From Rhodopseudomonas sp. AAP120 (GTDB taxonomy: Bacteria > Pseudomonadota > Alphaproteobacteria > Rhizobiales > Xanthobacteraceae): 36,172 nucleotides of DNA. Where the stretch lies: contig NZ_LJIC01000008.1 in assembly GCF_001295845.1 (NCBI RefSeq), forward strand, positions 1 through 36,172, given 5' to 3'. This document shows, piece after piece, positions 9,430-31,311 of the stretch (positions are counted from its first letter, which is position 1; each line of letters begins with the position of its first letter). The notes beneath the pieces are model-generated. The model made no database searches and had not been told where the DNA came from. It was given only the letters and a program-made list of their open reading frames with translations. A program made the position numbers and the translations under genes.

Positions 9430-9471
9430 GGGAGTCCTCGATGAGGTTGTTGAAAGGGTCGGCCGGGCCGC

Positions 9472-9498
9472 GAACGAAACCGCATGCTGCGTTCGTTC
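9472..9498 (-). other. Intercistronic hairpin in the copper operon
   Basis: GAACGAA and TTCGTTC pair around an inner CGCA/TGCG stem, giving 11 base pairs with a two-base bulge and a three-base loop. It lies in the 128-nt gap between the DUF2946 and PCu(A)C genes. There is no U-run after it, so it is more likely an RNA-processing or stability element than a terminator. Confidence 0.4.
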
Positions 9499-9557
9499 TC
9501 GGCTCGGTCCGATGGAAGGGAATGAAAGGATGGCGCGCAGGCTGCAGGCGCGTGACG

Positions 9558-12963: not shown

Positions 12964-14634
12964 CTACGCCGTCAGCACGTGGACGACGCAGAGTGGCTTC
13001 TTGCCCCAATGCTGCTGGATGACCGAGCGGACTGTACGCCGGACGGACTCCGCGACCGAGTCGGGATCGCGTCGCTTGGCCCGCGGCAAGCCCTCGACCG
13101 TCGCCACCACGGCGTCGAACACGATGTCATCGAACGGCTCGCCGGCGCTGGTGTTTTCCGGCACGCCGATCAGCTCGACTTCCGGATCGTCGACGAGTTC
13201 GCCCGCCTCGGTCATCGCCAGCGCCACCACGGCGCAGCCGGCGAACGCCATCTTGCGGCGCTCGACGACGGCCCGCGACTTGTCCTCTTCGAGGATGCTG
13301 CCGTCCTTGTAGAGACGACCGGCGGGTAGTTGCTCGATGACCGCGGGATCGCCCGGACCGAGCCGGATCAGATCGCCGTTGCGGCAGGTCATCACCTTCG
13401 GCACGCCCATCTGCCGTGCCAGCTTGGCGTGCTCGTTGAGATGCAGCGCCTCGCCGTGCACCGGGATCAGCAATTGCGGCCGCACCCAGGAGATCAGTTC
13501 GCGCAGCTCGTCCCGGCGCGGATGGCCGGAGACGTGGACCAGGTGATCGCGATCGGTGATCACATCGATGCCCTGATTGACCAAGCCGTTGATGATGCTG
13601 CCCACCGCCTTCTCGTTGCCCGGGATGGTGCGCGACGAGAAGATCACGCAGTCGCCCTTGTTCAGCGTCACTTCCGGATGGTCGTCGCGCGCGATCCGCG
13701 CCAGTGCGGCGCGCGGCTCGCCCTGGCTGCCGGTGCACAGCGCCAGCACCTTGTCCGGCGGGAAATGGCCGTAGTACTCGGGTCCGCGGAAGCTCGGCAC
13801 GCCGTCGAGATAGCCGCATTCGCGGGCGACGTTCGAGACGCGGTCCATCGCTCGGCCGACCAGCACGACCTCGCGGCCAGCCGCCTTCGCGGCATCGGCG
13901 ACGGCGCGAATGCGGCCGACGTTCGACGCGAAGGTCGTCACCGCGACGCGGCCCTTGGCCGATTTGATCAGGCCGGTGAGCGAGACGCCGACTTCGGATT
14001 CCGACGGCGAACGGCCGTCGCGCACCGCGTTGGTCGAGTCGCCGACCAGCGCCAACACCCCCTCGTCGCCGATCTCGCGCAGCCGCTTTTCATCCGTCGG
14101 CGGGCCGACGACCGGCGTCGGGTCGATCTTCCAGTCGCCGGTGTGCAGCACGGTGCCGACGGAAGTGCGGATCGCCAGCGCATGGCTTTCCGGGATCGAG
14201 TGCGCGACCGGGATGAACTCGACGCTGAATGGGCCAAGATCGATCGTGCCGCCGGACGGCACCTCGGTGATCGGAATCTTCAGCGTGGTGCGTTCGGCCG
14301 CGAGCTTGGCGGCGAACAGCGAAGCGCTGAACTTGGTGGCGTAGATCGGGCACTTCAGCTTCGGCCACAGATCGATGATCGCGCCGAAATGATCCTCGTG
14401 GGCATGGGTCAGCACGATGCCAACGAGGTTCTTCTTCTCTTTCTCGAGGAAGCGGATGTCCGGCATGATCAGATCGATGCCGGGCAGATGCTCCTCGTCA
14501 CCGAACGACACACCGAGGTCGACCGCCAGCCAGCTGCGCTGAGCACGGTTGCCGAGGCCGTAGATCGACAGGTTCATGCCGATCTCGCCGACGCCGCCGA
14601 GCGGTGCGAAAAAGAGTTCGTCGGGTCGTGCCAT
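12964..14634 (-). CDS. rnj: Ribonuclease J
   Basis: 556 residues. Metallo-beta-lactamase/beta-CASP ribonuclease with 5'-3' exonuclease and endonuclease activity, used in rRNA maturation and mRNA turnover. Start: PLGGVGEIGMNL (11-22); zinc motif HAHEDH (77-82); later VAHSIPESHA and VLHTGDWKID; beta-CASP stretch with SDSTNA-like GDSTNAVRDGRSPSE, SSRTIPGNE, and HVSGHPRRDEL; C-terminal domain to the end. ATG 14634 overlaps the birA stop by one base (TAATG). It is the last gene of the nuoA-N/birA/rnj chain, a linkage known in alphaproteobacteria. Confidence 0.95.
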   Translation of the reverse strand: MARPDELFFAPLGGVGEIGMNLSIYGLGNRAQRSWLAVDLGVSFGDEEHLPGIDLIMPDIRFLEKEKKNLVGIVLTHAHEDHFGAIIDLWPKLKCPIYATKFSASLFAAKLAAERTTLKIPITEVPSGGTIDLGPFSVEFIPVAHSIPESHALAIRTSVGTVLHTGDWKIDPTPVVGPPTDEKRLREIGDEGVLALVGDSTNAVRDGRSPSESEVGVSLTGLIKSAKGRVAVTTFASNVGRIRAVADAAKAAGREVVLVGRAMDRVSNVARECGYLDGVPSFRGPEYYGHFPPDKVLALCTGSQGEPRAALARIARDDHPEVTLNKGDCVIFSSRTIPGNEKAVGSIINGLVNQGIDVITDRDHLVHVSGHPRRDELRELISWVRPQLLIPVHGEALHLNEHAKLARQMGVPKVMTCRNGDLIRLGPGDPAVIEQLPAGRLYKDGSILEEDKSRAVVERRKMAFAGCAVVALAMTEAGELVDDPEVELIGVPENTSAGEPFDDIVFDAVVATVEGLPRAKRRDPDSVAESVRRTVRSVIQQHWGKKPLCVVHVLTA

Positions 14635-15440
14635 TACGCGGCTCCTGATGACGCAGCCGAGCGGAAATACACGTCCCCGGCGGGGATCGGTACCCTCCTT
14701 CCGTCGGCGGTGCGAACGATGAGGCAGCCGGTGTCGTCGATGGTTTCGAAAATGCCGTCGATGGTGGCCGATCCGGACTGGATCGACACCGGCTCGCCGA
14801 TCCGGGTGGCGCGGGCGAGCCATTGCTTGCGGATTTCGCCGAAGCCCCGCCCCTCGTCCCAGATGCCGCGGATCTCGGTCCAGGCATCGGACAGCGCAGC
14901 GAACAGATCCTCGGCGCTCACTTGAATGCCGAGGCTGTGCAGCGACGCTGCGGGATACGGCGTGTCGTCGGGCGCGGCAACCACATTGGTGCCCATGCCG
15001 ACCACGACGGCGAGCCGGTCGGTGCCGACGTTTTCGGCCTCGAGCAGAATCCCGGTGAGCTTCTTGCCGTCAGCCAGCACGTCGTTCGGCCATTTCAGCG
15101 CGAAGCCGGCGGCGACGCCGCCGCGTGCGCGGGCCTCCAGACTGACTTGCTGCAGCGCGCGTTCGAGCGCGAGGCCGGCGGCGAAGCTCAGCGTCGCGGC
15201 GACGCTCGGCGGCACGTGCATCACTTCGAGAACGCTGGCGGCGAGATTGCCGCGCGGCGCGATCCAGGCCCGCTGACGGCGGCCGCGGCCCGAAGTCTGT
15301 TCGGTGGTGACGAACCAGATCGGACCGGCCTCGCCTGCCCGCGCGCGGGCCAGCGCCTCGGTGTTGGTCGATCCGATGGAATCAAAAGCGGCGAGCCGGT
15401 AGCCCGCCGCTTCCGCTTTCGACCCGAGGCGTAGCGCCAT
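14634..15440 (-). CDS. birA: Biotin--[acetyl-CoA-carboxylase] ligase
   Basis: 268 residues. Activates biotin to biotinyl-AMP and attaches it to the biotin carrier of acetyl-CoA and related carboxylases. Motifs: STNTEA (24-29), TSGRGRRQRAW (49-59, the adenylate loop), APRGNL, FALKWPNDVLADGKKLTGIL, VVVGMGTNV, and a C-terminal SH3-like cap (RTADGRRVPIPAGDVYFR). There is no N-terminal winged helix, so it is a monofunctional ligase and not the biotin repressor. ATG 15440 begins 1 nt after the nuoN stop, and its own stop overlaps rnj. Confidence 0.94.
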   Translation of the reverse strand: MALRLGSKAEAAGYRLAAFDSIGSTNTEALARARAGEAGPIWFVTTEQTSGRGRRQRAWIAPRGNLAASVLEVMHVPPSVAATLSFAAGLALERALQQVSLEARARGGVAAGFALKWPNDVLADGKKLTGILLEAENVGTDRLAVVVGMGTNVVAAPDDTPYPAASLHSLGIQVSAEDLFAALSDAWTEIRGIWDEGRGFGEIRKQWLARATRIGEPVSIQSGSATIDGIFETIDDTGCLIVRTADGRRVPIPAGDVYFRSAASSGAA

Positions 15441-15441
15441 C

Positions 15442-16878
15442 CTAGAACAGCGACTTGGCTGCGGCTGTGGCCGCATTCACCAGCGGCGCTGGATAGATGA
15501 AGAACAGCATGTTGAACAGCCCGGCGACCGCCAGCACGCCGCGCAGCTCCAGCCGCACCCGGTCGATACCCGGGGCCGGCTCGTCGAAATACATCACCTT
15601 GATGATGAGCAGGTAGTAGTAGGCACCCACCACGCTGGTGACGACGCCGATCACCGCGAGCGCGAACAGGCCGGCCTTGATGGCCGCCATGAACACGTAG
15701 AACTTGGCGAAGAAGCCGGCGAGCGGCGGGATGCCGGCCATCGAGAACAGCAGCATCGCGAAGAAGAACGCCAGCGCCGGGTTGGTGCGCGACAGGCCGG
15801 CGAAGTCGCTGATGTTCTCGACGTGCAGACCGTTGCGACGCATCGACAGGATCACCGCGAACGCGCCCAGCGTCATCGCCACATAGATCGAGATGTAGAC
15901 GATCACGCCCTGCGCGCCTTCGACCGTGCCGGCCGACAGGCCGACCAGCGCGAAGCCGATATGGCCGATCGCCGAATAGGCCATCAGGCGTTTGATGTTC
16001 TTCTGGCCGATCGCCGCGAACGAGCCGAGCGCCATCGAGGCGATTGCCACGAACACCACGATCTGCTGCCACTGCGGCACGATGCCGGGGAACGCCGTCA
16101 GCGTCACACGGGTGAAGATCGCCAGACCAGCGACCTTAGGGGCCGAGGCGAAGAACGCGGTGACCGGGGTCGGCGCGCCTTCATAGACGTCCGGCGTCCA
16201 CATGTGGAACGGCACGGCCGAGACCTTGAAGCAGAGCGCGGCGAGCAGGAAGACAAGGCCGAACACCAGGCCGATATTGCCGTCCTTGGCCGCCGCGGCG
16301 ATGCCGGCGAACTGCACGGTGCCGGTGAAGCCATAGATCAGCGAGGCGCCGTAGAGCAGCATGCCGGACGACAGCGCGCCGAGAATGAAATACTTCATGC
16401 CGGCTTCGTTGGACTTAGCGTCCTCGCGGTTGCTGGCGGCGACGACGTAGAGCGCCAGGCTCATCAGCTCGAGGCCGAGATACAGCATGATCAGGTCGCC
16501 GGCCGAGATCAGCAGCATCATGCCGGCCGACGACAGCAGCACCAGGATGGCGTATTCGAACATCCGCTTCGACGGATCGGTCAGGTTCTCGGCCGACAGG
16601 ATCAGCGTCACCGCCGAGCCGATCAGCGCCAGCACCTTCAGGAAGCGGGCGAAGTCGTCGACGATGAAGCTGCCGCCGAAGGTGACCAGCTTGCCGGGCG
16701 GCAGCAGCACGACCAGCGCCCCGACCACGACCAGCAGAACGACCGCGAGCGTTGCGACCAGCCCGGTGGTGCGCGGCCCGCGATAGGCGCCGAGCATCAA
16801 CAGCAGCATCGCGCCGACCACCAGCACGATTTCGGGCAGGACCGGGACCAGCGAATAACCGGCGATATCGATATTCAT
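15442..16878 (-). CDS. nuoN: NADH-quinone oxidoreductase subunit N
   Basis: 478 residues, about 14 membrane helices, one of the three antiporter-like proton channels of complex I. LYLGLELMSLALYVVAASNR carries the conserved glutamate; FKVSAVPFHMWTPDVYEGAP carries the channel lysine and histidine; KRLMAYSAIGHIGFALVG carries the mid-membrane lysine; and MAGIPPLAGFFAKFYVFMAA is typical of NuoN. It follows nuoM by 19 nt and runs into birA after a single base. Confidence 0.97.
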   Translation of the reverse strand: MNIDIAGYSLVPVLPEIVLVVGAMLLLMLGAYRGPRTTGLVATLAVVLLVVVGALVVLLPPGKLVTFGGSFIVDDFARFLKVLALIGSAVTLILSAENLTDPSKRMFEYAILVLLSSAGMMLLISAGDLIMLYLGLELMSLALYVVAASNREDAKSNEAGMKYFILGALSSGMLLYGASLIYGFTGTVQFAGIAAAAKDGNIGLVFGLVFLLAALCFKVSAVPFHMWTPDVYEGAPTPVTAFFASAPKVAGLAIFTRVTLTAFPGIVPQWQQIVVFVAIASMALGSFAAIGQKNIKRLMAYSAIGHIGFALVGLSAGTVEGAQGVIVYISIYVAMTLGAFAVILSMRRNGLHVENISDFAGLSRTNPALAFFFAMLLFSMAGIPPLAGFFAKFYVFMAAIKAGLFALAVIGVVTSVVGAYYYLLIIKVMYFDEPAPGIDRVRLELRGVLAVAGLFNMLFFIYPAPLVNAATAAAKSLF

Positions 16879-16897
16879 AGCGTGCAGTCCTTGCCGG

Positions 16898-18415
16898 TTA
16901 AGGTAGCGCAGCTGCCTTCACGGCAGTCGCGACGGCGGCGTATTGGTTGACGAGGTGCTGGACCGAGGCGGCCGACATGTCGAGCACCGGCTTCGGATAG
17001 AAGCCGAACAGGATGGTCAGCACCACGAACGGCGCCAGAATGACGCTCTCACGCAGGGTCAGGTCCTTGATCGAGGCGAGCGCCGGCTTGGTCAGCGCAC
17101 CGAACACCACCTTGCGATACAGCCAGAGCGCATAGGCCGCCGACAGGATCACGCCCAGCGCCGCGAAGGTCGCGGTCGGGATGTTGGTCCGGAAGGTGCC
17201 CATCAGCGTGAGGAATTCGCCGACGAAGCCCGACGTGCCCGGCAGGCCGACATTGGCCATGGTGAACACCAGGAACACGAAGGCGTACAGCGGCATCCGG
17301 TTGACCAGCCCGCCATAGGCGGCGATCTCGCGGGTGTGCATGCGGTCGTAGATCACGCCGACGCAGAGGAACAGCGCGCCGGACACGATGCCGTGCGAGA
17401 TCATCTGGAACACGCTGCCGGCGACGCCCTGGGTGTTGCCGGCGAAGATCCCCATGGTGACGAAGCCCATATGCGCGACCGAGGAGTACGCGATCAGCTT
17501 CTTGATGTCCTCCTGCATCAGCGCGACCAGCGAGGTGTAGACGATCGCGATCACGGAGAGCGTGTAGACCAGCGGCGCGAAATACACCGAGGCGTCGGGG
17601 AACATCGGCAGCGAGAACCGCAGGAAGCCGTAGCCGCCCATCTTCAGCATGATCGCGGCCAGCACCACGGAGCCGGCGGTCGGCGCCTCGACGTGCGCGT
17701 CGGGGAGCCAGGTGTGTACCGGCCACATCGGCATCTTCACCGCGAACGAGGCGAAGAACGCCAGCCACGCCCAGGTCTGCAGGTTGCGCGGCAGCGCGGT
17801 GGTCATCAGCGTCGGGATGTCGGTGGTGCCCGCGGTCCAGTACATCGCCATGATGGCCAGCAGCATCAGCACCGAGCCGAGCAGCGTGTACAGGAAGAAC
17901 TTGAACGACGCGTACACCCGGCGCGGGCCGCCCCAGACGCCGATGATCAGGAACATCGGGATCAGGCCGCCTTCGAAGAACAGATAGAACAGCACCAGAT
18001 CGAGCGCCGAGAAGGTGCCGATCATCAGCGTTTCCAGGATCAGGAACGCCATCATGTATTCGCGCACCCGGAACGTCACCGACTTCCAGCTGGCGAGGAT
18101 GCAGAACGGCATGATCGCCGTGGTCAGGATCACCAGCGGCAGCGAAATGCCGTCGAGGCCCATGTGGTAGGTGATGGTGTTGCCGAGCCAGGGCGCCTTC
18201 TCGACGAACTGGAAGCCCGGGTTCGACGCATCGAACCGCGCCACCAGGATCAGTGACACCGCGAAAGTGATCAGCGTGGTCCACAGCGAGATCCAGCGCG
18301 CGTTGCGGCGCGCGGCCTCGTCGTCGCCGCGGGCCAGATAGACCAGCAGCGCGCCGACCAGCGGCAGGAAGGTGACGACCGACAGGATCGGCCAAGTCAT
18401 GATTGAAGCCGACAT
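16898..18415 (-). CDS. nuoM: NADH-quinone oxidoreductase subunit M
   Basis: 505 residues, about 14 membrane helices, the middle antiporter-like proton channel. [22 protein letters not shown] holds the essential glutamate, [22 protein letters not shown] the channel lysine, [18 protein letters not shown] the broken-helix lysine, and [19 protein letters not shown] the late helix. ATG 18415 overlaps the nuoL stop by one base (TAATG); an inner ATG at 18400 is also possible. Confidence 0.97.
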
Positions 18416-20556
18416 TACCGGCCTCCCCCGCCGAGCATGAACCAGGTAATCAGACCGGCCACGCCGATCAGCATCGCGAATGCGTAGTGGTAGAGATAGC
18501 CGGTCTGCAGCTTGACCACCCCGCGGGTGACGTCGAGCACGCGGGCCGAGATGCCGTCCGGACCGAGGCCGTCGATCAGCATGCCGTCCCCCTTCTTCCA
18601 GAGCTGGCGGCCGATCCACTTCGCAGGCCGCACGAAGATGACGTCGTACAGCTCGTCGAAGTACCACTTGTTGAGAAGGAAATTGTACAGCAGCGGGTGC
18701 TGGGTCGCGAGTTCGACCGGCAGATACGGCCGGCGGATGTAGAACAGATACGACACCAGGAAGCCCACCACCATCATCACCGTCGGCAGATAGGCGATGC
18801 CGGCCGGGATGTGATGCATCTCCTCGATGATGTGCGGGTGCATCTTCAGCGACTCGCGGAAGAACTCCTCGACGCCGTGCCCGGCGAACAGCTCCTTGAA
18901 CGGATAGCCGGCCGCCAGCGCGCCGAAGGCGAGCACGAACAGCGGGATCGTCATGGTCAGCGGGCTCTCGTGCGCGGCTTCGTAGTGCTTACGATCGGCC
19001 GGCTCGCCGTGGAACGTCTTGAAGATCAGACGCCACGAGTAGAACGAGGTCAGCAGCGCCGCGACGACCGTCATCAGGAAGCCGTAGAACGCCATCGGGT
19101 TGTGCGAGACGTAGGCCGACTCGATGATCGCGTCCTTGGAGAAGTAGCCGGCGGTCAGCGGGAACCCGGTCAGCGCCAGGGTGCCGATCACCATCACCGC
19201 ATAGGTGAAGGGGATGCGGTCCTTGAGGCCGCCCATGTGGCGGATGTCCTGCTCGTGATGCATCGCGTGGATCACCGAGCCGGCGCCCAGGAACAGCAGC
19301 GCCTTGAAGAAGGCGTGCGTGAACAGATGGAACATGCCGACCGAATAGGCCCCTGCTCCCAGCGCCACGAACATATAGCCGAGCTGCGAACAGGTCGAAT
19401 ACGCCACGATCCGCTTGATGTCGTTCTGGACAAGACCGATGGTCGCCGCGAACAGCGCGGTGGTGCCGCCGAAGAACATCACCACGGCCTGGGCGTTCGG
19501 CGCCAGTTCGAACAGCGGCGACATCCGGGCGACCATGAAGACGCCGGCGGTGACCATGGTGGCGGCGTGGATCAGCGCCGACACCGGGGTCGGGCCTTCC
19601 ATCGCGTCCGGCAGCCAGGTGTGCAGCAGGAACTGCGCCGACTTGCCCATCGCGCCCATGAACAGCAGCAGGCAGGCCAGCGTCAGCGCATCGGCGTGCC
19701 AGCCGAAGAAGTTGATGGTCTTGCCGGTCAGCCCGGGCGCGGCCGCGAAGATGGTGTCGAAATCGGTCGACGCCACCAGCACGAAGATCGTGAAGATGCC
19801 GAGCAGGAAGCCGAAGTCGCCGACGCGGTTGACCACGAAGGCCTTGATCGCCGCGGCGTTGGCGGACGGCTTTTGATACCAGAAGCCGATCAAGAGATAG
19901 CTCGCCAGACCGACGCCTTCCCAGCCGAAGAACAGCTGCAGCAGATTGTCGGCGGTCACCAGCATCAGCATCGCGAAGGTGAACAGCGACAGGTAGCCGA
20001 AGAACCGCGGACGATGCGGATCCTCGTGCATGTAGCCGATCGAATACAGGTGGACGAGCGACGACACCGTCGTCACCACCACCAGCATCACGGCGGTCAG
20101 CGTGTCGACGCGGAGCGTCCAGGCGACCTGCAGGTCGCCCGAATTGATCCAGGGCAACACCGGCACGCGGATATCGTGGTGCATGAAGCCGACGTCGACC
20201 AGCGTCACCCAGGACAGCGCCGCCGAGATCAGCAGCAGCGTGGTGGTGACGATCTCGGCGAGGCGTGAGCCTACCGCGGCCGGCTCGACCGGGCCGTGCG
20301 CATGGTCGTCGTGAGCGTGATCGTCATGACCATGGGCCGCGTGCGCGTGGGCGTCGTGGCCGACCGGCTCGGAATGCGTCTCGTGGATCACCGCGGCGTC
20401 ACCGCCGACCGGAGCCGTGTGACCATGGCCGTGGCCGTGGTCATCATGATGCTCGACGGTGTCGCCGCTCGGGTTGCGGGCGTGCGCGCCGACGAGGGCG
20501 ATGACGGCCGCGATCAGCGCGCCGATCAGCGGCAGGAATACGATAGCCTGGATCAT
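18415..20556 (-). CDS. nuoL: NADH-quinone oxidoreductase subunit L with His-rich loop
   Basis: 713 residues, the distal proton channel of complex I with the long lateral helix at the C-terminus. Conserved parts: [58 protein letters not shown] (in pieces), [18 protein letters not shown], and [12 protein letters not shown]. It is longer than the roughly 615 residues of E. coli NuoL. Most of the extra length near the start is a loop between the first and second helices (residues about 28-98), with 17 histidines between residues 36 and 87 in motifs such as [12 protein letters not shown]. The loop is predicted to be disordered and metal-binding; its role is unknown. A 21-codon frame overlaps the start (ATGA). 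Confidence 0.97.
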
Positions 20557-20618
20557 GCGCGCGCCTTCGCCTTGAGCCGGATCGCGTCGCGGGTCAGCGA
20601 CGGGTGATGGACGATCAT
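20553..20618 (-). CDS. Possible 21-residue microprotein or leader between nuoK and nuoL
   Basis: An ATG at 20618 begins 3 nt after the nuoK stop (TAG GGC ATG), and the frame ends in a TGA that overlaps the nuoL start as ATGA. It thus fills the otherwise unexplained 65-nt gap exactly. The peptide begins [17 protein letters not shown] and ends KARA; it is basic, with no membrane helix. AAGG from the end of nuoK lies about 9 nt before the ATG. Its likely role, if translated, is to carry ribosomes from nuoK to nuoL. It may also be chance; I know of no family. Confidence 0.4.
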
Positions 20619-20621
20619 GCC

Positions 20622-20933
20622 CTAGCCCTTCATCAGGTTGATATCTTCAACCGCGATCGTGCCGCGGTTGCGGAAGAACACCACGAGCACCGCAAGGCCG
20701 ATCGCGGCCTCGGCCGCGGCCACGGTCAGCACCAGGAGTGCGAAGACCTGACCGACGATGTCGTTGAGAAAGATCGAGAACGCCACCAGGTTGATGTTCA
20801 CGGCGAGCAGGATCAGCTCGATCGACATCAGGATGATGATGACGTTCTTGCGGTTGAGGAAGATGCCGAGAATGCCGAGCGTGAACAGAACGGCGGCGAC
20901 CGACAGGAAGTGACCCAGACCGATCTCGTTCAT
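20622..20933 (-). CDS. nuoK: NADH-quinone oxidoreductase subunit K
   Basis: 103 residues, three membrane helices, homologous to mitochondrial ND4L and to Mrp[20 protein letters not shown] holds the conserved membrane glutamate of helix 2, and [13 protein letters not shown] that of helix 3, both part of the proton path. ATG 20933 ([10 protein letters not shown]) overlaps the nuoJ stop by 4 nt (ATGA). The open frame has a start 9 nt upstream, less likely by family length. Confidence 0.97.
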
Positions 20934-21568
20934 CGCACCCACTCCGCGGAGTCGCTGTCGGACAGTCCCTGCCCCGGCTTGACCTTGCGCAGCGCCATCG
21001 CGGTCTCCTTCGACCGCGCGTTCTGCTCGGCGATGTTCTGCCGCTTCACCGACTTCTTGTGGCGCAGCGTCAGGACGATCGCGCCGACCATCGCCACCAG
21101 CAGGATCATGCCCGAGATCTGGAAGTAATGGATGTAGCGGGTGTACAGCACCAGGCCGAGCGCCTCGGTGTTGGTGACGCCCGCCGGGATCGGCGCCGTG
21201 ATCGTCTTGGTGACGGTCGGCGTGATCACCCAGCCGCCGGCGAGCAGCAGCAGTTCGGCGAGGAAGATGAAGCCGATCAGGAGGCCGAACGGCAGATATT
21301 CGAGGAAGCCCTCGCGCAGCCGGCTGAAGTCGACGTCGAGCATCATGATCACGAACAGGAACAGCACCGCGACGGCGCCGACATAGACCACGATCAGGAT
21401 CATCGCCAGGAATTCGGCGCCCATCAGCACGAACATGCCGGCGGCGTTGACGAACACCAGGATCAAGAACAGCGCCGAGTGCACCGGGTTGCGCGCGAAC
21501 ACCACCATGACGGCGGCCGCGATCGCTGCGCCGGCGTAGAGATAGAAGAACAGGACTGGCATGGACAT
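20930..21568 (-). CDS. nuoJ: NADH-quinone oxidoreductase subunit J
   Basis: 212 residues, five membrane helices, homologous to mitochondrial ND6. [20 protein letters not shown] and [23 protein letters not shown] (in part) include the helix 3 region with the pi-bulge that changes during turnover. The C-terminal about 40 residues ([19 protein letters not shown] onward) are hydrophilic and basic, as in related bacteria. Start at 21568, with a second ATG two codons on. It lies 9 nt after nuoI and overlaps nuoK. Confidence 0.97.
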
Positions 21569-21577
21569 GGCGTCAGC

Positions 21578-22066
21578 TCACCGGTACGGCGCGTCGAGTT
21601 CGATGGACTTGGCGATCTCACGCTCCCAGCGATCACCGTTCGCGAGCAGCCTGGCCTTGTCGTAGTACAGCTCTTCGCGGGTCTCCGTGGAGAACTCGAA
21701 GTTCGGTCCCTCGACGATGGCGTCGACCGGACAGGCCTCCTGGCACAGACCGCAATAGATGCACTTCACCATGTCGAGGTCGTAGCGCACGGTGCGGCGG
21801 GTGCCGTCGTTGCGCCGCGGACCGGCCTCGATGGTGATCGCCTGCGCCGGACACACCGCCTCGCACAGCTTGCAGGCGATGCAGCGCTCTTCGCCGTTGG
21901 GATAGCGGCGCAGCGCGTGCTCGCCGCGGAAGCGGGGCGAGATCGGGTTCTTCTCGAAAGGATAATTGATCGTCGGCTTCGGCTTGAAGAAATAGCGCAT
22001 GGCGAGGAAGAACGCCGATACGAATTCCGTCAGCAGCAGCGAGCGGGCGGTTGCGTTGATGTTCAT
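21578..22066 (-). CDS. nuoI: NADH-quinone oxidoreductase subunit I
   Basis: 162 residues. Carries clusters N6a and N6b, the path from NuoG to NuoB. Two ferredoxin motifs are intact: [12 protein letters not shown] (Cys62, 65, 68, 72) and [12 protein letters not shown] (Cys102, 105, 108, 112). The N-terminal amphipathic stretch ([20 protein letters not shown]) sits on the membrane, and [20 protein letters not shown] is typical of alphaproteobacterial and mitochondrial TYKY. Starts 7 nt after nuoH. Confidence 0.98.
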
Positions 22067-22073
22067 AGAGGCC

Positions 22074-23099
22074 TCATTTCGGCGCGAGCCCCGCGAATTG
22101 CAGGACGGCGGCGACGATCACCACCATCGCCAGCGACAGCGGCAGGAACACCTTCCAGCCGAGCCGCATCAGTTGGTCGTAGCGGTAGCGCGGCACGATC
22201 GCCTTCGCCATCGCGAACAGGAAGAACATGAACAGGACTTTGAGCGCGAACCAGACGATGCCCGGCACCCAGGTGAACGGCGCGTAAGGCACCGGCGGCA
22301 GCCAGCCGCCGAGGAACAGGATCGTGCCCATCGCGCACATCGTGACGATGGCAACGTATTCGCCGAGCATGAACAGCAGATACGGCGTCGACGAGTATTC
22401 GACCATGAAGCCGGCGACCAGTTCCGATTCCGCTTCGACGAGGTCGAACGGCGGACGGTTGGTCTCGGCCAGCGCCGACACGTAGAACACCACGAACATC
22501 GGGAACAGCGGCAGCCAGTACCAGCCGAGCATGCCCCACTTCGAGTTCTGCGCCTCGACCACCGCGGTCAGGTTCAGCGAGCCGACGCACAGCAGGACGC
22601 AGATCACGACGAAGCCGATCGAGACTTCGTAAGACACCATCTGCGCCGCGGAGCGCAGCGCCGCGAGGAACGGATATTTCGAGTTCGACGACCAGCCGGC
22701 CATGATGATGCCGTAGACCGACAGTGACGACACCGCGAGGATGAACAGCACACCGACATTGATGTCGGCGATCACCCAGCCGGCGTTGACCGGGATGACG
22801 GCCCAGGCCGACAGCGCCAGCACGCAGGTGACCAGCGGCGCCAGCAGGAACACGCCCTTGTTGGCGCTGTCCGGAACCGTCGGCTCCTTCAGCACGAACT
22901 TCAGCAAGTCCGCGAAGGACTGCAGCAGGCCCCAGGGGCCAACCACGTTCGGGCCACGCCGGATCTGCACCGCCGCCCAGATCTTGCGGTCGGCGAGCAG
23001 GATGTAGGCGATCGAGATCAGCAGGATGACCAGCAGCAGCACGCTCTGGCCGATCACGATGATCAGCGGCCACAGGTTGGTCATGAAGAAATCAGCCAT
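22074..23099 (-). CDS. nuoH: NADH-quinone oxidoreductase subunit H
   Basis: 341 residues, eight membrane helices, homologous to mitochondrial ND1. It forms much of the quinone channel with NuoB and Nuo[21 protein letters not shown] and FVLKEPTVP near the start, and [20 protein letters not shown] with the conserved acidic residues of the E-channel, are all present. Follows nuoG by 9 nt. Confidence 0.98.
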
Positions 23100-23108
23100 C
23101 GGTCCTGC

Positions 23109-25184
23109 CTATTCCGCCGCCGTCAGCATTTGGCCCGAGGCGAGACGGGAGCACTCCGCCATCACCGCCGAGGCCCGCGCGATCGGGTTGGTCATGAAGT
23201 AATCCGCAATCACCGGCTTGAACGGCGCCTTGTCGATGCTGCCGCCCGCGGCGGCGAGCGTGCGCACGGCACCGGCGTCGCCGGCTTCGATCTGGTCGAC
23301 CCGCATCAGATGCGGCACGGCGCCGAACATCGCCTTGCGCAGCGCCTGCAGCGAGTCGTAGGGCAGCCGCGCGCCGAGCGCGTCGGACAGCGCCCGGATG
23401 ATCGCCCAGTCCTCGCGCGCGTCACCCGGCGGGAACGACGCGCGGTTGGCGATCTGCACCCGGCCCTCGGTGTTGACGTAGATGCCCGACTTCTCGGTGT
23501 AGGCAGCGCCCGGCAGGATCACGTCGGCGCGGTGCGCGCCGCGGTCGCCATGGGTGCCGATATAGACGACGAAGGCGCCGTCCGGCAGCTTCACCTCGTC
23601 GGCGCCGAGCGCGAACACGACGTCCATCGCGCCCTGCGTGGTCATCTGCGCCAGGTCCTTGCCGCCCTCGCCCGGCGCGAAGCCGATGTCGAGCGCGCCG
23701 ACGCTGGAGGCCGCCGGATGCAGCACGGCAAAACCGTTCCAGCCGTCCTTCACCGCGCCGATATCGCCCGCGAGCTTTGCAGCCGCCGACAGCAGCGCCG
23801 CGCCGTCACGCCGCGACGTCGCCGCGGCGCCGATCAGCACGATCGGGTTCTTGGCGTTCTTCAGCGTCTCGGCGAACGAATGCTTGCCGGCCGCAAGATC
23901 AGCCAGCGTGTCGGAGCCGGCGCCGAGATAGTCGTACGAATAGGTCAGCTCGGCCTGCTCGCCGATCACGCCGATCGCCAGCTGGCCGGTGCGCCAGCGC
24001 TTGCGGATGCGGGCGTTGAGGATCGAGGCTTCCTTGCGCGGGTTGGAGCCGATGATCAGCAACGCATCCGCCTGCTCGATGCCGGCGATGGTCGGGTTGA
24101 AGATGTAGGACGCCCGGCCCGCCTTCGGGTTGAACGCCGCGACGCTTTCGGCCGCCAGATTCGACGAGCCGAGCTGCTCCAGCAGCTGCTTCAGCGCGAA
24201 CATCTCTTCGACCGCGGCGAGATCGCCGGCGATCGCGCCGATCTTCTTGGCATCGGCAGCGGCGACCTTGGCCTTGATCAGGCCGAACGCCTCCGGCCAG
24301 CTCGCCGGGCGCAGCTTGCCGCCCTCGCGGACGTAAGGCTGATCGAGCCGCTGGGTACGCAGGCCGTCGACGATGTGGCGGGTCTTGTCGGAGATCCACT
24401 CCTCGTTGATCGCCTCGTTGACGCGCGGCAGGATGCGCATCACTTCGCGGCCGCGGGTATCGACGCGGATCGAAGAGCCGACGCCGTCCATGACGTCGAC
24501 CGACTGCGTCTTGCCGAGTTCCCAGGGCCGCGCCGCGAAGGCGTAGGGCTTGGAGGTCAGCGCGCCGACCGGGCAGATGTCGACGAGATTGCCCTGCAGC
24601 TCCGAGGTCAGCGCGCTCTCGAGATAGGAGGTGATCTCCATGTCCTCGCCGCGGCCGATCGCGCCCATCTCCGGCACGCCGCAGACTTCCGCGGCGAAGC
24701 GCACACATCGGGTGCACTGGATGCAGCGGTTCATCGAGGTCTTGACCAGCACGCCGAGATACTTGTCCTCGACGGCGCGCTTGTTCTCGGCGAACCGGCT
24801 GGTGTCGACGCCGTAGCCCATCGCCTGATCCTGCAGGTCGCACTCGCCGCCCTGATCGCAGATCGGGCAGTCGAGCGGATGGTTGATCAGCAGGAATTCC
24901 ATCACGCCCTCGCGGGCCTTCTTCACCATCGGAGACTTGGTGTTGATCTCCGGCGGCTCGCCGTTCGGGCCGGGGCGGCAATCGCGCACGCCCCAGGCGC
25001 AGCTCGCGACCGGCTTCGGCGTGCCCTTCAGCTCGACCAGGCACATCCGGCAGTTGCCGGCGATCGACAGCCGCTCGTGATAACAAAATCGCGGAATCTC
25101 GGCGCCGGCCGACTCGCAGGCCTGCAGCAGCGTGTATTCCGGCGGAACCTCGACTTCCTTGCCGTCGACGATGATCTTGATCAT
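23109..25184 (-). CDS. nuoG: NADH-quinone oxidoreductase subunit G
   Basis: 691 residues, the large iron-sulfur subunit of the peripheral arm. Ligands: Cys34, 45, 48, 62 for the 2Fe-2S cluster N1b; His102, Cys106, 109, 115 for N5; Cys154, 157, 160 and 204 for N4. No extra cysteines for N7 are evident, as in mitochondria and Paracoccus. The rest is a molybdopterin-oxidoreductase-like domain without cofactor. ATG 25184 (MIKIIVDGKEVEVPPEYTLL) is chosen for conservation; it is 5 nt after the nuoF stop. Confidence 0.98.
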   Translation of the reverse strand: MIKIIVDGKEVEVPPEYTLLQACESAGAEIPRFCYHERLSIAGNCRMCLVELKGTPKPVASCAWGVRDCRPGPNGEPPEINTKSPMVKKAREGVMEFLLINHPLDCPICDQGGECDLQDQAMGYGVDTSRFAENKRAVEDKYLGVLVKTSMNRCIQCTRCVRFAAEVCGVPEMGAIGRGEDMEITSYLESALTSELQGNLVDICPVGALTSKPYAFAARPWELGKTQSVDVMDGVGSSIRVDTRGREVMRILPRVNEAINEEWISDKTRHIVDGLRTQRLDQPYVREGGKLRPASWPEAFGLIKAKVAAADAKKIGAIAGDLAAVEEMFALKQLLEQLGSSNLAAESVAAFNPKAGRASYIFNPTIAGIEQADALLIIGSNPRKEASILNARIRKRWRTGQLAIGVIGEQAELTYSYDYLGAGSDTLADLAAGKHSFAETLKNAKNPIVLIGAAATSRRDGAALLSAAAKLAGDIGAVKDGWNGFAVLHPAASSVGALDIGFAPGEGGKDLAQMTTQGAMDVVFALGADEVKLPDGAFVVYIGTHGDRGAHRADVILPGAAYTEKSGIYVNTEGRVQIANRASFPPGDAREDWAIIRALSDALGARLPYDSLQALRKAMFGAVPHLMRVDQIEAGDAGAVRTLAAAGGSIDKAPFKPVIADYFMTNPIARASAVMAECSRLASGQMLTAAE

Positions 25185-25189
25185 GGCTG

Positions 25190-26515
25190 TTACTCCGCCG
25201 CCACCATATGCGCCGGATCGAGCACGCCCTGGTCGTCGAGCGTGGCCTTGCGCGAGAAATCGTCGATGCGGCGCTCGATCTCCGGACGGAAGGCGCGGAT
25301 CAGGCCCTGGATCGGCCAGGCCGCGGCGTCGCCGAGCGCACAGATGGTGTGACCTTCGACCTGCTTGGTCACTTCGAGCAGCATGTCGATTTCGCGCTTG
25401 TGGGCGCGGCCTTCGACCATGCGGCTGAGCACGCGCCACATCCAGCCGGTGCCTTCGCGGCACGGCGTGCACTGGCCGCAGCTCTCATGCTTGAAGAAGT
25501 AGCTGATACGGGCGATCGCGGCGACGACGTCGGTGGACTTGTCCATGACGATGACGCCGGCGGTGCCGAAGCTCGACTTCACCGCGCGGGTGCCGTCGAA
25601 GTCCATGATGAGTTCCTGGCAGTCAGCGGCCGGGATCAGCGGGCACGACGCGCCGCCCGGAATGATCGCCAGCAGATTGTCCCAGCCGCCGCGAATGCCG
25701 CCGCCGTGCTTCTCGATCAGCTCGCGGAACGGAATGCCCATCGCGTCTTCGACGACGCAGGGCGTGTTGACGTGGCCGGAGATGCCATAAAGCTTGGTGC
25801 CGACATTGTTCGGCCGGCCGATGCCGGAGAACCAGGCCGCGCCGCGGCGCAGAATGTCCGGCGCCACCGCGATCGACTCGACGTTGTTGACCGTGGTCGG
25901 GCAGCCGTACAGGCCGACGTTCGCCGGAAACGGCGGCTTCAGCCGCGGCTGGCCCTTCTTGCCTTCGAGGCTCTCCAGCAGCGCGGTTTCCTCGCCGCAG
26001 ATATAGGCGCCGGCACCGTGCGCGACGTAGAGGTCGAACGGATAGCCGTGGACGTTGTCCTTGCCGATCAGCTTGGCCTCGTAGGCCTGATCGATCGCCG
26101 CCTGCAGATGCTCGCGTTCGCGGATGAATTCGCCGCGCACGTAGATGTAGCCGACATGGGCGCCCATCGCGCAGCCGGCGATCAGGCAGCCCTCGACCAG
26201 CGTATGCGGGTCGTGCCGCATGATCTCGCGATCCTTGCAGGTGCCCGGCTCGGATTCGTCGGCGTTGACGACCAGATAGCTCGGCCGGCCGTCGGCATTG
26301 TCCTTCGGCATGAAGGACCATTTCAGGCCGGTCGGGAAGCCGGCGCCACCGCGGCCGCGCAGCCCCGACGCCTTCATCTCGCTGATGATCCAGTCGCGAC
26401 CCTTGTCGATGATCGCCTTGGTGCCTTCCCATTGGCCGCGACGGCGCGCGCCTTTGAGGCCCCAGTCGTCGAGGCCGTACAGGTTCCGGAAGATGCGGTC
26501 CTTGTCGTCGAGCAT
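25190..26515 (-). CDS. nuoF: NADH-quinone oxidoreductase subunit F
   Basis: 441 residues. Site of NADH oxidation, carrying FMN and the 4Fe-4S cluster N3. NADH/FMN-binding glycine-rich stretches are seen: [16 protein letters not shown] (51-66), [16 protein letters not shown] (84-99), and [19 protein letters not shown] (167-185). Cluster ligands: [10 protein letters not shown] (Cys346, 349, 352) and Cys392. Start 26515, 18 nt after the small membrane-protein gene. Confidence 0.98.
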
Positions 26516-26533
26516 GGCTTGCGACGTTCCCTG

Positions 26534-26749
26534 TCAGCGATTCGATTGCATGTAGGCGAGCCCGGCAGCGCATCCCCCGAAGGTGAGCGCCCAGATCAGG
26601 CTCGACTCGAATGTCGCGCTGAGCGCGTAGCGCTGCAGCACGAAGATGAAGACGGCCGCGACGACGGCGTGCGTCGCGATGTAGAGCGGCTTGCTCATCG
26701 GTACGGTCCCCTCGGCCCTACCCCGGCCGATGCTCATCGGCGCGGTCAT
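26534..26749 (-). CDS. Small two-helix membrane protein between nuoE and nuoF
   Basis: 71 residues if started at ATG 26749, which overlaps the nuoE stop by 4 nt (ATGA); 54 residues from an inner ATG at 26698, which has a GAGGGG ahead of it. It has two likely membrane helices ([20 protein letters not shown] and [19 protein letters not shown]) joined by a short loop, and ends QSNR. I do not recognise a family. Its place inside the operon, coupled to nuoE and 18 nt before nuoF, suggests a role in complex I assembly or structure, possibly a supernumerary subunit. That is inference only. Confidence 0.75.
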
Positions 26750-27495
26750 GGCGGGTTCTTTTCGGTGGCGTCGGCGGTCGGCGCCTTCGGGTCCGGCCGC
26801 TCGCGCACGTTCGCTTCGGCCGTGGTCCGCTTCGGCTCGTGATCGGTCAGCGCCGGACCTTCATTGCCGCCCGGCTCGACATTGATGCCGCCGGTCTTCA
26901 GCGTCGACGGACCGGTGCTCGGCGCGGCATATTGCCGGCCGTTCTGCGGGCCTGGCTTCGGCGGATTGCCGGCGGCGAAACCGTCGATCACGTTGTTCAG
27001 GAGCTCCGGCGTCAGATCCTCGTAGGTATCCTTCCAGATCTGCACCATCGGCGCGTTGACGCAGGCGCCGGCGCACTCGACCTCTTCCCAGGAGAAGTCG
27101 CCGTCGGCCGACAGATGGAAGGGATCGTGATGGATACGGTTCTTGCAGACTTCGATCAGTTCGCCGGCGCCGCGCAGCATGCAGGGCGTGGTGCCGCAGA
27201 CCTGGACGTGCGCCTTCTTTCCGACCGGATTGAGCTGGAACATGGTGTAGAAGGTCGCCACTTCCAGCGCGCGGATGTACGGCATCTCCAGCATGTCGGC
27301 GACCACGCGGATAGCGGCCTCGGGCAGCCAGCCGCCGGACTGCTCCTGCGCCCGCCACATCATGGCGATCACCGCCGAGAATTGGCGGCCGGGCGGATAT
27401 TTGCCGATTTCGCGCTGCGCCCAGGCGAGGTTGTCCTCGGTGAAGGCGAAGCTGGCGGGTTGCTGCTCTTTCGGAGCCAGACGACGGACGGACAT
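26746..27495 (-). CDS. nuoE: NADH-quinone oxidoreductase subunit E with extended tail
   Basis: 249 residues, the thioredoxin-fold subunit holding the 2Fe-2S cluster N1a, ligated by Cys100, Cys105, Cys141 and Cys145 ([15 protein letters not shown] and [14 protein letters not shown]). The core ends near residue 176. The remaining about 73 residues are rich in Pro, Gly, Thr and charged residues ([13 protein letters not shown], then a tail ending DATEKNPP) and look disordered; E. coli NuoE is about 166 residues. ATG 27495 is 2 nt after the methyltransferase stop, and the end overlaps the small membrane-protein gene by 4 nt. Confidence 0.97.
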
Positions 27496-27497
27496 GA

Positions 27498-28466
27498 TCA
27501 GTTTCTCATCGCGCGCTTCGCCGCGCTCGCATTCAGGTTTTCGATACGGGCCAGCCAGAACGCGCTCGCGGTTCCGACGACGTTGTAGCCGACATTCGAC
27601 GCGACCTTGATCCGATCGAGGATCGCGAGGTCGACGACGGCCTCGAACTGGTTGCTGCCGGGGTCGTACACCACCAGCTTCAGCGGCGTGTGTTCGAGGA
27701 TGAAGCGCGACACGCTGTGGGCCCGGTCGCTGCCGTGTTCCTCGCAGAGAATCGCGGTGTCGCCCTGCAGCAGCCGTTCGCCGCCGCGGATCGCGTCGAT
27801 TTCGACGCCCTCGACGTCGAGCTTCACCAGATACTTGCCGCCGACCGCCAGGTGTCCGTCGTCGATCAGATCGTCGAGGCGGATCACCGGCACTTCTTCG
27901 CCCGTCTCGTCGTCGCCGACGATGCTGAGCGCTTCGTGCTTGGTGCCCGACAGCCGCGCGGTGCCGCGCGTCGCGCCGATCGCGCATTTCATCACGTCGA
28001 ACCGACCGCCATTGACCCGGGCGTTGTTCTCCAGCCGCGCGAAATTGGCGCCCGACGGCTCGATCGCGATGGTGCGATGACTGCCGAACGGACGGCTCGA
28101 CACCAGCACCGACCAGTAGCCGTAATTCGCGCCGCAATCGACGAACGTATAATCGACGTCGGCCGAATGCGCGAACAAAAGGTCGAGCTCGATCTCGTAG
28201 CGGTAGGAGCGTTCGAGCAGCTTGCTCCAGTAGCCGTCGCCGTAGGGGAACACGAAGGTGGCGTCGGGGTTGAGCTTGATCGCGATGTCGCGCTCCGGCA
28301 GCGCCTTGCGCATCAAATTCGCGGCGGCGTTGTAGCCACGATACGAGAACGAGGACGAGACGCGGGCGCCCATCACCAGCGCGCACGCGGCCATGCGCTC
28401 GAGGGCGCTTGCCCCTTCGAGCGCGCCGGTCGCGCGGTCAAACTGGATGGGCGCGGGTGCGATCAC
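27498..28466 (-). CDS. FkbM-family methyltransferase inside the nuo operon
   Basis: 322 residues from a GTG at 28466 that overlaps the nuoD stop by 4 nt (GTGA); the stop is 2 nt before nuoE. S-adenosylmethionine-binding motif I is seen as [12 protein letters not shown] (108-119), motif II as [15 protein letters not shown] (134-148), and the FkbM-type VIRLDDLID (194-202) and [16 protein letters not shown] (215-230). FkbM enzymes are mostly O-methyltransferases of sugars and secondary metabolites. No signal peptide or membrane helix. It is not a standard complex I gene, yet it is as tightly packed and as GC-rich as its neighbours, so it is a settled operon member. The substrate is unknown; a complex I subunit, a quinone or an unrelated cell-surface sugar are all possible. 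Confidence 0.9.
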
Positions 28467-29668
28467 CGATCGACCTCTCCGAACACGATGTCGAGCGAAC
28501 CGAGGATGGCCGAGACGTCGGCGAGCAGATGGCCGCGGTTCATGTAGTCCATCGCCTGCAGATGCGCGAAGCCGGGAGCGCGGACTTTGCACTTGTACGG
28601 CTTGTTAGTGCCGTCGGAGACCAGGAACACGCCGAACTCACCCTTCGGCGCCTCGACGGCGACGTAGACCTGACCGGCCGGCACACGGAAGCCTTCGGTG
28701 TAGAGCTTGAAGTGATGGATCAGCGATTCCATCGAGCGCTTCATCTCGCCCCGGCGCGGCGGGAAGATCTTGTTGTCGTCGACCGCGACACGGCCCTGCC
28801 CGTCCGGCGCGCGCAGCTTGGCGATGCACTGCTTCATGATCTTGACCGACTGCCGCATCTCTTCGACACGGATGCAGTAGCGGTCGTAGCAGTCGCCGTT
28901 CTTGCCGATCGGAACATCGAATTCCATCTCGGCGTAGCACTCGTAGGGCTGAGCCTTGCGCAGGTCCCAGGCGGCGCCCGAGCCGCGCACCATGACGCCG
29001 GAGAAGCCCCACTTCCAGGCGTCGTCCAGCGAGATCACGCCGATGTCGACGTTGCGCTGCTTGAAGATACGGTTGTTGGTCAGCAGCGTCTCGAGGTCAT
29101 CGACGGTCTGCACGAAGGTGTCGCACCAGGCGTCGATGTCGTCGATCAGCTGCGTCGGCATGTCCTGATGCACGCCGCCGACGCGGAAATACGCCGCGTG
29201 CATCCGGCTGCCGGACACGCGCTCGTAGAACATCATCAGCTTTTCGCGCTCTTCGAAGCCCCACAGCGGCGGGGTCAGCGCGCCGACGTCCATCGCCTGC
29301 GTGGTGACGTTGAGCATGTGCGACAGGATGCGGCTGATCTCGCAATACAGCACGCGGATCAGCTGCGCGCGGCGCGGCACTTCGATGCCGAGCAGCTTCT
29401 CGGTCGCGAGGCAGAAGGCGTGCTCCTGGCTCATCGGCGCGACGTAGTCGAGCCGGTCGAAATACGGGATCGCCTGCAGATAGGTCTTGGCTTCGATCAG
29501 CTTCTCGGTGCCGCGATGCAGCAGACCGATATGCGGATCGACCCGCTCCACGACTTCGCCGTCGAGCTCCAGCACCAGCCGCAGCACGCCGTGCGCCGCC
29601 GGATGCTGCGGGCCGAAATTGATCGTGAAGTTGCGAAGACCGGCGGCCTCGGTAGCAGCATCAGCCAT
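28463..29668 (-). CDS. nuoD: NADH-quinone oxidoreductase subunit D
   Basis: 401 residues, the 49-kDa-type subunit that forms the quinone site with Nuo[21 protein letters not shown] (18-37) holds the quinone-binding histidine; [26 protein letters not shown] with the tyrosine and aspartate near the quinone head, and the C-terminal DIVFGEVDR are conserved. A separate nuoC precedes it (42-nt gap), so C and D are not fused as in E. coli. Its TGA overlaps the methyltransferase GTG. Confidence 0.98.
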
Positions 29669-29710
29669 GGGGCAAGCTCCGCTTGGCGGCGAACGATGAA
29701 CAGCGAGCGA

Positions 29711-30325
29711 TCACGGCTTCACCCCTGCCTTCTCGTCTCCCGGGAGGATCGGATAGTCGGCGCCCTCCCAGGGCGAGAGGAAATCGAATTTGCGGAATTC
29801 CTGGTTGAGCCGCACCGGCTCGTACACCACCCGCTTCTGGTCGTCGTCGTAACGGACTTCGACGAAGCCGCTGAGCGGGAAGTCCTTACGCAGCGGATGA
29901 CCGTCGAAGCCGTAATCGGTCAGGATCCGGCGCATATCCGGATGACCGGTGATGATGATGCCGTAGAGGTCGTAGACCTCGCGCTCGAACCAGTCGGCGC
30001 CCGGAAACTCGCTGATGATCGACGGCACCATCGTGGTCTCGCCGACCTGCCCGACCAGCCGCACCCGCTCGTTCAGCGTCGGCGACAGGAAATGGTACAC
30101 CATGTCGAAGCGCAGCTCGCGGCCCGGATAGTCCACCGCGGTCACGTCGATGACGCTGACGAAGCGGAAGCGCGGGTCGTCGCGCAGCACCCGCACGACG
30201 TCCACCACCTTCAGCGGATCGATCGCGATCTCGAGCTGACCATGCGCGACCGAATGACCGATCGCGGCGCCCGGCAAGGCGGCCACGATCGTCTGACCAA
30301 GGGTGTCGAGCCCGTTGTCGTCCAT
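29711..30325 (-). CDS. nuoC: NADH-quinone oxidoreductase subunit C
   Basis: 204 residues, homologous to the mitochondrial 30-kDa subunit, in the peripheral arm next to Nuo[45 protein letters not shown] is the family signature (seen in pieces from residue about 113), followed by [16 protein letters not shown]. Starts 12 nt after the nuoB stop. Confidence 0.98.
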
Positions 30326-30337
30326 GAAGCAGCCTTC

Positions 30338-30955
30338 TTAGCGTTCGATCGTTCCGGTCCGGCGGATCTTCTTCTGCAGCAGCAGCATGCCGTACAGCAA
30401 AGCCTCGGCGGTGGGCGGGCAGCCCGGCACGTAGATGTCGACCGGGACCACGCGATCGCAGCCGCGGACGACCGCGTAGGAATAGTGATAGTAGCCGCCG
30501 CCGTTGGCGCAGGATCCCATCGAGATGACGTAGCGCGGCTCCGGCATCTGGTCGTAGACCTTGCGCAGCGCGGGGGCCATCTTGTTGGTCAGCGTGCCGG
30601 CGACGATCATCACGTCGGACTGGCGCGGCGACGCACGTGGCGCGAAGCCGAACCGCTCGGCGTCGTAGCGCGGCATCGACAGCTGCATCATCTCGACCGC
30701 GCAGCAGGCGAGACCGAAGGTCATCCACATCAGCGAGCCGGTGCGCGCCCAGGTGATCAGGTCGTCGGTCGCGGCGACGAAGAAGCCCTTATCGGACAGC
30801 TCGCGATTGACGTTCTGGAAGAACGGATCATCGGCCCCGATCGGCTTGCCGGTGTTCGGATCGATGATGCCGCGCGGCGCCGGCGCGATCAGCGGCTGAG
30901 CACCGACCGGAGTAGCCGACGGCGTCTGCTGCATCGAGGCTGGCCTCAATCCCAT
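30338..30955 (-). CDS. nuoB: NADH-quinone oxidoreductase subunit B
   Basis: 205 residues. Carries cluster N2, the last electron carrier before quinone, ligated by the tandem Cys84-Cys85 ([12 protein letters not shown]) with Cys149 ([10 protein letters not shown]) and Cys179 (VPGCPPT). The first 45 residues are a Pro/Ala-rich extension. Two starts are plausible: ATG 30955 (MGLRPASM), overlapping nuoA by 10 nt, and ATG 30934 (MQQTPSAT), with GAGG 9 nt upstream; the first resembles the MGL start common in relatives. Confidence 0.96.
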
Positions 30956-31311
30956 TCCAGTGCACCCTTCTTCCACTCATACGCGAAGCCGACGGTCAGC
31001 ACGCCGAGAAACACCATCATCGACCAGAACCCGGTCGCGCCGAGCTTCCCGAACGCCACCGCCCAGGGAAACAGGAACGCGACCTCGAGATCGAAGATGA
31101 TGAAGAGGATCGCGACCAGATAGAACCTCACATCGAACTTCATGCGGGCATCGCCGAAAGCGTTGAACCCGCATTCATAAGCCGAGAGTTTTTCCGGATC
31201 AGGCTGCTGATAGGCGACGGCGAATGGCGCCACCAAGAGCACAAAGCTCAGGCCAGCCGCAACCACAATAAACACGACGATTGGCAGATAACTCGGCAGA
31301 ATGCCGCTCAT
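30946..31311 (-). CDS. nuoA: NADH-quinone oxidoreductase subunit A
   Basis: 121 residues, three membrane helices, homologous to ND3. The loop between helices 1 and 2 has the conserved [20 protein letters not shown], including the cysteine that senses the active/deactive state in mitochondria, followed by [22 protein letters not shown] with the acidic membrane residues. First gene of the operon; AGGGAAC precedes the ATG. Confidence 0.98.

Follow-up and report, generated by a model that had tools for sequence, protein, structure and literature searches.

Known methyltransferases of the FkbM family act on hydroxyl groups of natural products or sugars and are encoded in biosynthetic clusters. O-methyl sugars are found in the LPS of R. 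palustris as well as in the exopolysaccharide of Bradyrhizobium. A methyltransferase of respiratory complex I is also known, namely NDUFAF7, which is responsible for the arginine methylation of the 49-kDa subunit of the mitochondrial enzyme. Rhodopseudomonas sp. AAP120 harbors an FkbM-family gene within its nuo operon for complex I, directly between nuoD, which encodes the 49-kDa subunit, and nuoE. The locus was analyzed in a window of 36,172 nucleotides (contig NZ_LJIC01000008.1, positions 1 to 36,172), which is the whole stretch of DNA considered here and to which the following coordinates refer:

27498..28466, minus strand: FkbM-family SAM-dependent methyltransferase, 322 amino acids, GTG start (profile searches and AlphaFold model)
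28463..28466, minus strand: GTGA, FkbM start overlapping the nuoD stop by 4 nt (sequence; overlap kept in relatives)
28473..28480, minus strand: GGAGAGGT, Shine-Dalgarno-like stretch ahead of the FkbM start, within the final codons of nuoD, the protein of which ends in FGEVDR (sequence; putative role)
28110..28142, minus strand: SAM-binding motif, residues 109-119 (translation and alignment)
27801..27824, minus strand: conserved motif KLDVEGVE, residues 215-222 (translation and alignment)
28463..29668, minus strand: nuoD (49-kDa subunit), upstream neighbor (PF00346, 404.8 bits)
26746..27495, minus strand: nuoE, downstream neighbor (PF01257, 168.2 bits)
15442..31311, minus strand: nuo operon from nuoA (31311) to nuoN (15442), by profiles; probably a single transcript, judging from the layout

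The FkbM reading frame runs from a GTG at 28466 to a TGA at 27500..27498 on the minus strand, without an internal stop. The GTGA at 28466..28463 also holds the stop codon of nuoD, so that both genes overlap by 4 nt, and the ATG of nuoE at 27495 follows after a spacing of 2 nt. The first-pass annotation had described the gene as embedded in the nuo operon in exactly this way and with intact SAM motifs, both of which are confirmed here, as residues 109-119 and KLDVEGVE are present. Around FkbM, profiles confirm nuoC-nuoH, nuoM, nuoN, nuoA, nuoB, nuoJ, nuoK, and nuoL; nuoI shows Fe-S domains alone by profile and takes its name from its place in the operon. The FkbM protein itself scores above both curated cut-offs of its family, with 77.1 bits against 37.7 for TIGR01444 and 50.9 bits against 22.7 for PF05050, and it resembles the described family also in its SAM motif and in the span of the domain. 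What sets it apart is the location, since the described members belong to biosynthetic clusters, whereas the nuo-sited gene is part of a respiratory operon. The residues D110, G112, A113, and G116 are invariant over 22 aligned FkbM sequences, and an AlphaFold model of the protein has a mean pLDDT of 91.1; motif, invariant residues, and predicted model are those of a methyltransferase fold with SAM-binding motif as in the FkbM family. The 50 PDB matches listed for the model are mostly named methyltransferases with a TM-score over the query of at most 0.40, so that there is no close solved structure among them, and profile matches to solved structures comprise 2py6 at an E-value of 0.00077, followed by 3cp0 at 0.34. 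As a clue to the substrate, the structure search gave general methyltransferase matches only among the 50 listed. Pairwise dN/dS values of FkbM range from 0.11 to 0.31 in eight comparisons covering seven genomes (L004 and L230 being the same genome); in most of them the value is near that of nuoE and in most it is above that of nuoD. FkbM is under purifying selection, like nuoE. Because of these dN/dS values and of the synteny, which is conserved in all 80 named loci considered (the best ones out of 243 relatives, see below), the gene is not a chance reading frame: an intact FkbM-family gene in the nuo operon is real and kept by selection.

The arrangement is common among close relatives. Out of 16 genomes of the genus Rhodopseudomonas, the window's own included, 14 contain an FkbM copy of at least 83% identity, and all 14 copies are located between nuoD and nuoE; in the same-genus search G003 gave no FkbM match and G001 a 36% fragment elsewhere only. 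Among named genomes 243 relatives were found, the best 80 of which all have the order nuoD-FkbM-nuoE, with titles that are mostly Rhodopseudomonas or Bradyrhizobium. Conservation in these two groups is thus supported. Absence of the gene from the nuo operon of close relatives, named in the first-pass annotation as speaking against a role in complex I, was found in two genomes (G001, G003) with a nuoD-nuoE gap of 91 nt that contains a remnant, and not in 13 of the 15 other genomes of the genus. A recent insert in a single strain was considered and rejected, as FkbM is at nuo across the genus and in the best 80 of 243 named relatives.

At larger distance the distribution becomes patchy. A relative is present in 45 of 119 genomes of a family sample, with 33 of these having it at nuo without a large deletion, one (G057) at nuo with such a deletion, and seven elsewhere than nuo only; four genomes (G080, G096, G114, G094) were left out of this sorting by position. 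In a larger family sample, 121 of 296 genomes have a match, wherever placed. For the order and class samples the best few first-look candidates per genome were scored, and on this basis a relative occurs in 31 of 397 genomes of the order at E 1e-35 (an earlier order search with a single protein had given 15 of 249) and in three of 337 genomes of the class besides the window's own, the short loci analyzed for these three matches being free of nuo genes. Among the 31 matching genomes of the order, 28 carry FkbM at nuo, with identities down to 36%: 17 belong to the window's family and 11 to the families coded f11, f16, f22, f25, f28, f35, and f41. In two genomes (G306, G814) FkbM begins about 270 nt after nuoD, and nuoE is located at a further distance of more than 1 kb; the three matches away from nuo are those of G140, G371, and G721. 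From the order and class counts it follows that the nuoD-FkbM-nuoE arrangement is centered on one order and patchy therein.

With this distribution it can be asked whether FkbM, acting either as an assembly factor or for a modification specific to the lineage, methylates a component of complex I, e.g., a residue in one of the subunits of the peripheral arm. The position at nuo in 28 of the 31 matching order genomes speaks for it, as do NuoD and NuoE being operon neighbors, the purifying selection, and the fact that the genome has just one other PF05050 match, which is weaker (27 bits, over the cut-off). On the other side, 366 of the 397 order genomes have no match at E 1e-35, and FkbM paralogs exist outside nuo. 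Overall we regard a complex I target as unlikely, though as an option to be taken seriously. NDUFAF7/MidA and the FkbM protein are alike in being methyltransferases linked to the nuoD product, a link that for FkbM consists of gene position only. They differ in family, as NDUFAF7/MidA belongs to PF02636 and the nuo-sited FkbM to PF05050/TIGR01444. PF02636 was not found in the FkbM protein, in which PF05050 is the sole domain found, and it matches a separate MidA/NDUFAF7-type gene of the same genome (G000:C181) with 224.7 bits. The earlier statement that NDUFAF7 is of an unrelated family is thereby upheld, and the separate homolog speaks against FkbM being devoted to complex I. The idea that FkbM replaces NDUFAF7 was rejected, since the genome has its own PF02636 gene. 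In the open-licence literature no report was found that joins FkbM with complex I, nuo operon, or NADH-quinone oxidoreductase terms. A search of it with nuoD, nuoE, methyltransferase, and Rhodopseudomonas gave no report on this gene as far as titles and the beginnings of abstracts tell, and the word methyltransferase is absent from the main text of PMC4859585 and PMC12361115.

The descent of FkbM was compared with that of its neighbors in 47 nuo-linked sequences (46 for nuoC), a few of which are near-identical. FkbM distances correlate with those of nuoD (0.825), nuoC (0.799), and nuoE (0.742), and the nuo genes correlate among themselves with 0.725-0.808 in the same set. Both the overlap and this co-inheritance with nuoD are in line with a complex I target. 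On a tree of 64 FkbM sequences the label "at nuo" changes six times, compared to a mean of 15.3 after shuffling, and none of 500 shuffles was as low. The copies outside nuo nest inside the nuo-linked ones, except for three long-branched sequences of unsure place. This tree, the root of which is not firm and some deep sequences of which are long-branched, favors the nuo site as ancestral with several exits, which would again fit a complex I target. Non-nuo copies as the source of the nuo-sited gene were rejected, since the tree nests them within the nuo-linked sequences (the three long-branched ones being unsure).

Since FkbM is missing from many nuo operons, it was further considered how it became so. 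A tree of the joined Nuo proteins was made from 43 genomes, after four of 47 sets (L256, L259, L262, L288) had been dropped because of short contigs. On this tree the presence of FkbM changes eight times, a count that is itself blind to gain versus loss. Absences nested among carriers occur in four lineages, namely G001/G003, G085/G105, G100, and G057. None of these six genomes has an intact FkbM at nuo, and as far as aligned their 14 nuo genes contain no stops. Several of these loci bear scars. In the first three lineages, the remnants are similar to the end of a relative's FkbM. G001 and G003 retain a frame of 25 codons from FkbM's start in their 91-nt gap, and in G057 an in-frame deletion takes out much of the SAM domain. 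Comparison of the gap tails with the FkbM tails of relatives gave no shuffle out of 500 as high in five of nine comparisons, which cover each of five loci; in the other four, 9, 12, 20, and 41 of 500 shuffles were as high. For the gap heads, 2 to 17 of 500 shuffles were as high in four of nine comparisons and 100 or more in five. Moreover, G088, one of the 33 genomes of the family sample counted above as having FkbM at nuo without a large deletion, has an FkbM near nuoD with changed motifs and a conserved stretch missing, and this copy looks decayed. The scars mark at least three of the FkbM absences as losses. As the 14 nuo genes are intact in the loss lineages, the complex I genes persist without FkbM, and a loss leaves the host operon unharmed, with nuoD and nuoE still open beside remnants or deletion. 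A required subunit or assembly factor should be present wherever the nuo operon is complete, and in six genomes it is not. These losses weigh against a complex I target, and it is more likely due to them that FkbM is a passenger than a part of the machine.

A target within complex I was also looked for in the Nuo proteins themselves. Among 3,196 Nuo columns that are conserved in the clade of carriers, no column shows a change in three or more of the four nested losses and 25 changed in exactly two, in a test that is weak, because it lacks a null control and because the residue modified by an enzyme could remain unaltered once the enzyme is lost. Thirty-three columns differ by at least 0.45 in residue frequency between 21 carriers and 22 other genomes, a difference uncorrected for kinship, which may alone explain it. 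The lack of a co-varying Nuo residue in the column test counts against a complex I target. The hypothesis of the first-pass annotation, that FkbM is a modifying enzyme for a Nuo subunit, for a component of the quinone site, or for a molecule required in assembly, finds no support in view of four nested losses with complete nuo genes. Its alternative of a passenger gene that profits from the operon's expression fits better with the repeated losses, the unrelated reading frames at the same junction, the non-respiratory contexts of relatives, and the lack, in the weak test, of Nuo residues that change in step with the losses.

Other genes have occupied this junction as well. Within the window's own family, the nuoD-nuoE junctions of genomes without an FkbM match were checked, and unrelated ORFs were found there in other genera (L171, L183, L175, L180-L182), some of them Uma2-type or DUF559-type by eye, besides small secreted-looking ones. 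In seven out of 21 genomes that lack FkbM, the start of nuoE follows the last sense codon of nuoD at a distance of 2 nt, and the nuoE ATG and the nuoD stop have one base in common. At the end of nuoD, 43 of 47 operon loci have the sequence GGNGAGGT, regardless of whether FkbM is present or absent. An NTGA-type overlap of 4 nt with nuoD is found in 77 of 80 named loci and in 48 of 64 further loci, and its sequence is GTGA in 118 of the 125 overlapping loci, with some genomes shared between both sets. FkbM could be suspected to be a mobile or selfish element that has inserted into nuo junctions again and again, as suggested by its patchy spread (eight changes in the Nuo tree, which comprises 43 genomes) and by the other inserts at the same junction. 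This is very improbable, as FkbM distances follow those of the nuo genes, the gene is under purifying selection, and the scars mark at least three absences as losses. A further point in favor of mobility comes from the genus coded g24, of which G077 (L247) and G098 (L246) hold a divergent FkbM at the nuoD-nuoE junction. In their near relative G038 (L253) nuoD is followed directly by nuoE, with neither FkbM nor scar. No closer relative of the g24 FkbM was found among the 31 of 397 matching order genomes, the best identity being 40%. The case could be a recent gain or a loss by recombination, and a second independent arrival at the same junction, if this is what happened, would favor a functional tie.

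The best explanation, to which we give about an even chance, is that FkbM is a sugar or glycan O-methyltransferase that is carried in the nuo operon as an old passenger. The gene would have entered the nuo operon early in the order, or spread among the nuo operons of the order, and then have been largely inherited with the operon. Ribosomes that finish nuoD would translate FkbM, presumably with the aid of the Shine-Dalgarno-like codons in the final part of nuoD, and such a built-in ribosome site may make the junction receptive to an inserted gene. Since changes at this place must spare nuoD and nuoE, FkbM stays put and is either kept or cleanly lost. The product is probably a soluble cytoplasmic enzyme, as no signal peptide is evident by eye, which may use SAM to methylate the hydroxyl of a sugar, a glycan precursor, or a similar small acceptor rather than complex I. 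Other genes for non-subunits are located by nuo, too. birA, encoding biotin ligase, and an RNase J-like gene follow nuoN (12964-15476, minus strand), and FkbM is similar to them in having the same direction as the nuo genes but different in lying between two subunit genes and in being patchy. What argues against a passenger is that the site is kept over eight family codes at 36-44% identity, as a functional tie would give.

The suggested sugar chemistry draws on knowledge of the family and on the neighbors of a few relatives, of which 18 proteins were profile-scanned. Distant relatives are accompanied by a group-1 glycosyltransferase (L225), a sulfotransferase (L226), and a Wzy_C protein (L222). 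OpgC, a glucan-modifying protein, accompanies one clade of derived paralogs, being directly next to the gene in L144 and about 3 kb off in L143. Derived paralogs are also close to copper proteins, namely multicopper oxidases (L144, L145), CusF (L145), and PCuAC (L138, L140), and a protein that is weakly ATP-grasp-like is near those of L131 and L135. Hence glycan chemistry appears to be one thread in the relatives' neighborhoods and copper another, and the copper proteins speak against the sugar reading. They are among the points in favor of a further explanation, that FkbM methylates a small molecule linked to respiration (quinone, lipid, hopanoid, or cofactor), so that being expressed together with complex I would be of use although the latter is not the substrate. 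Two derived paralog clades beside PCuAC, CusF, and multicopper oxidase would suit this, as would the co-expression expected from the position and the confident model with listed PDB matches that are mostly methyltransferases. A quinone or lipid gene, however, was found among none of the 18 profile-scanned neighbor proteins, and we consider this explanation distinctly unlikely. In the window itself a copper cluster is located at 6723-9636 on the minus strand, which comprises a protein with CopC and CopD parts, both scoring below the NCBIfam cut-offs, DUF1775, and PCuAC.

Taken by itself the position points to a link with complex I, whereas the losses, the other inserts, the separate NDUFAF7-type homolog, and the relatives' contexts argue for FkbM as a passenger. 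A version of the complex I target that accommodates the losses would be a dedicated FkbM in Rhodopseudomonas, Bradyrhizobium, and scattered relatives of the order that methylates a peripheral-arm subunit or a Q-site component, tuning and not enabling complex I; its losses would then be understandable. This is doubtful, albeit conceivable, and such an enzyme would possibly be the first FkbM-family member with a respiratory complex as its target. If FkbM does act on complex I, important soil and photosynthetic bacteria would control a central respiratory enzyme post-translationally in a new way. In the case of a passenger, FkbM would clearly illustrate that a conserved operon can harbor an unrelated gene over a very long time, and it would caution against deducing function from the place in an operon. 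In both cases, a natural experiment exists in the form of close relatives that have or lack FkbM and whose nuo operons are otherwise complete.

A further small gene was observed in the operon. Between nuoE and nuoF, an ORF of 54 amino acids with hydrophobic stretches is located at 26534-26698 on the minus strand, for which no Pfam or NCBIfam match was found up to an E-value of 1. It has matches in 144 sequences, the window and overlapping loci being counted. Operon loci with an FkbM match contain it more often (14 of 22, G057 counted) than those without (three of 25). Possibly, this ORF encodes an unnamed small accessory protein of complex I.
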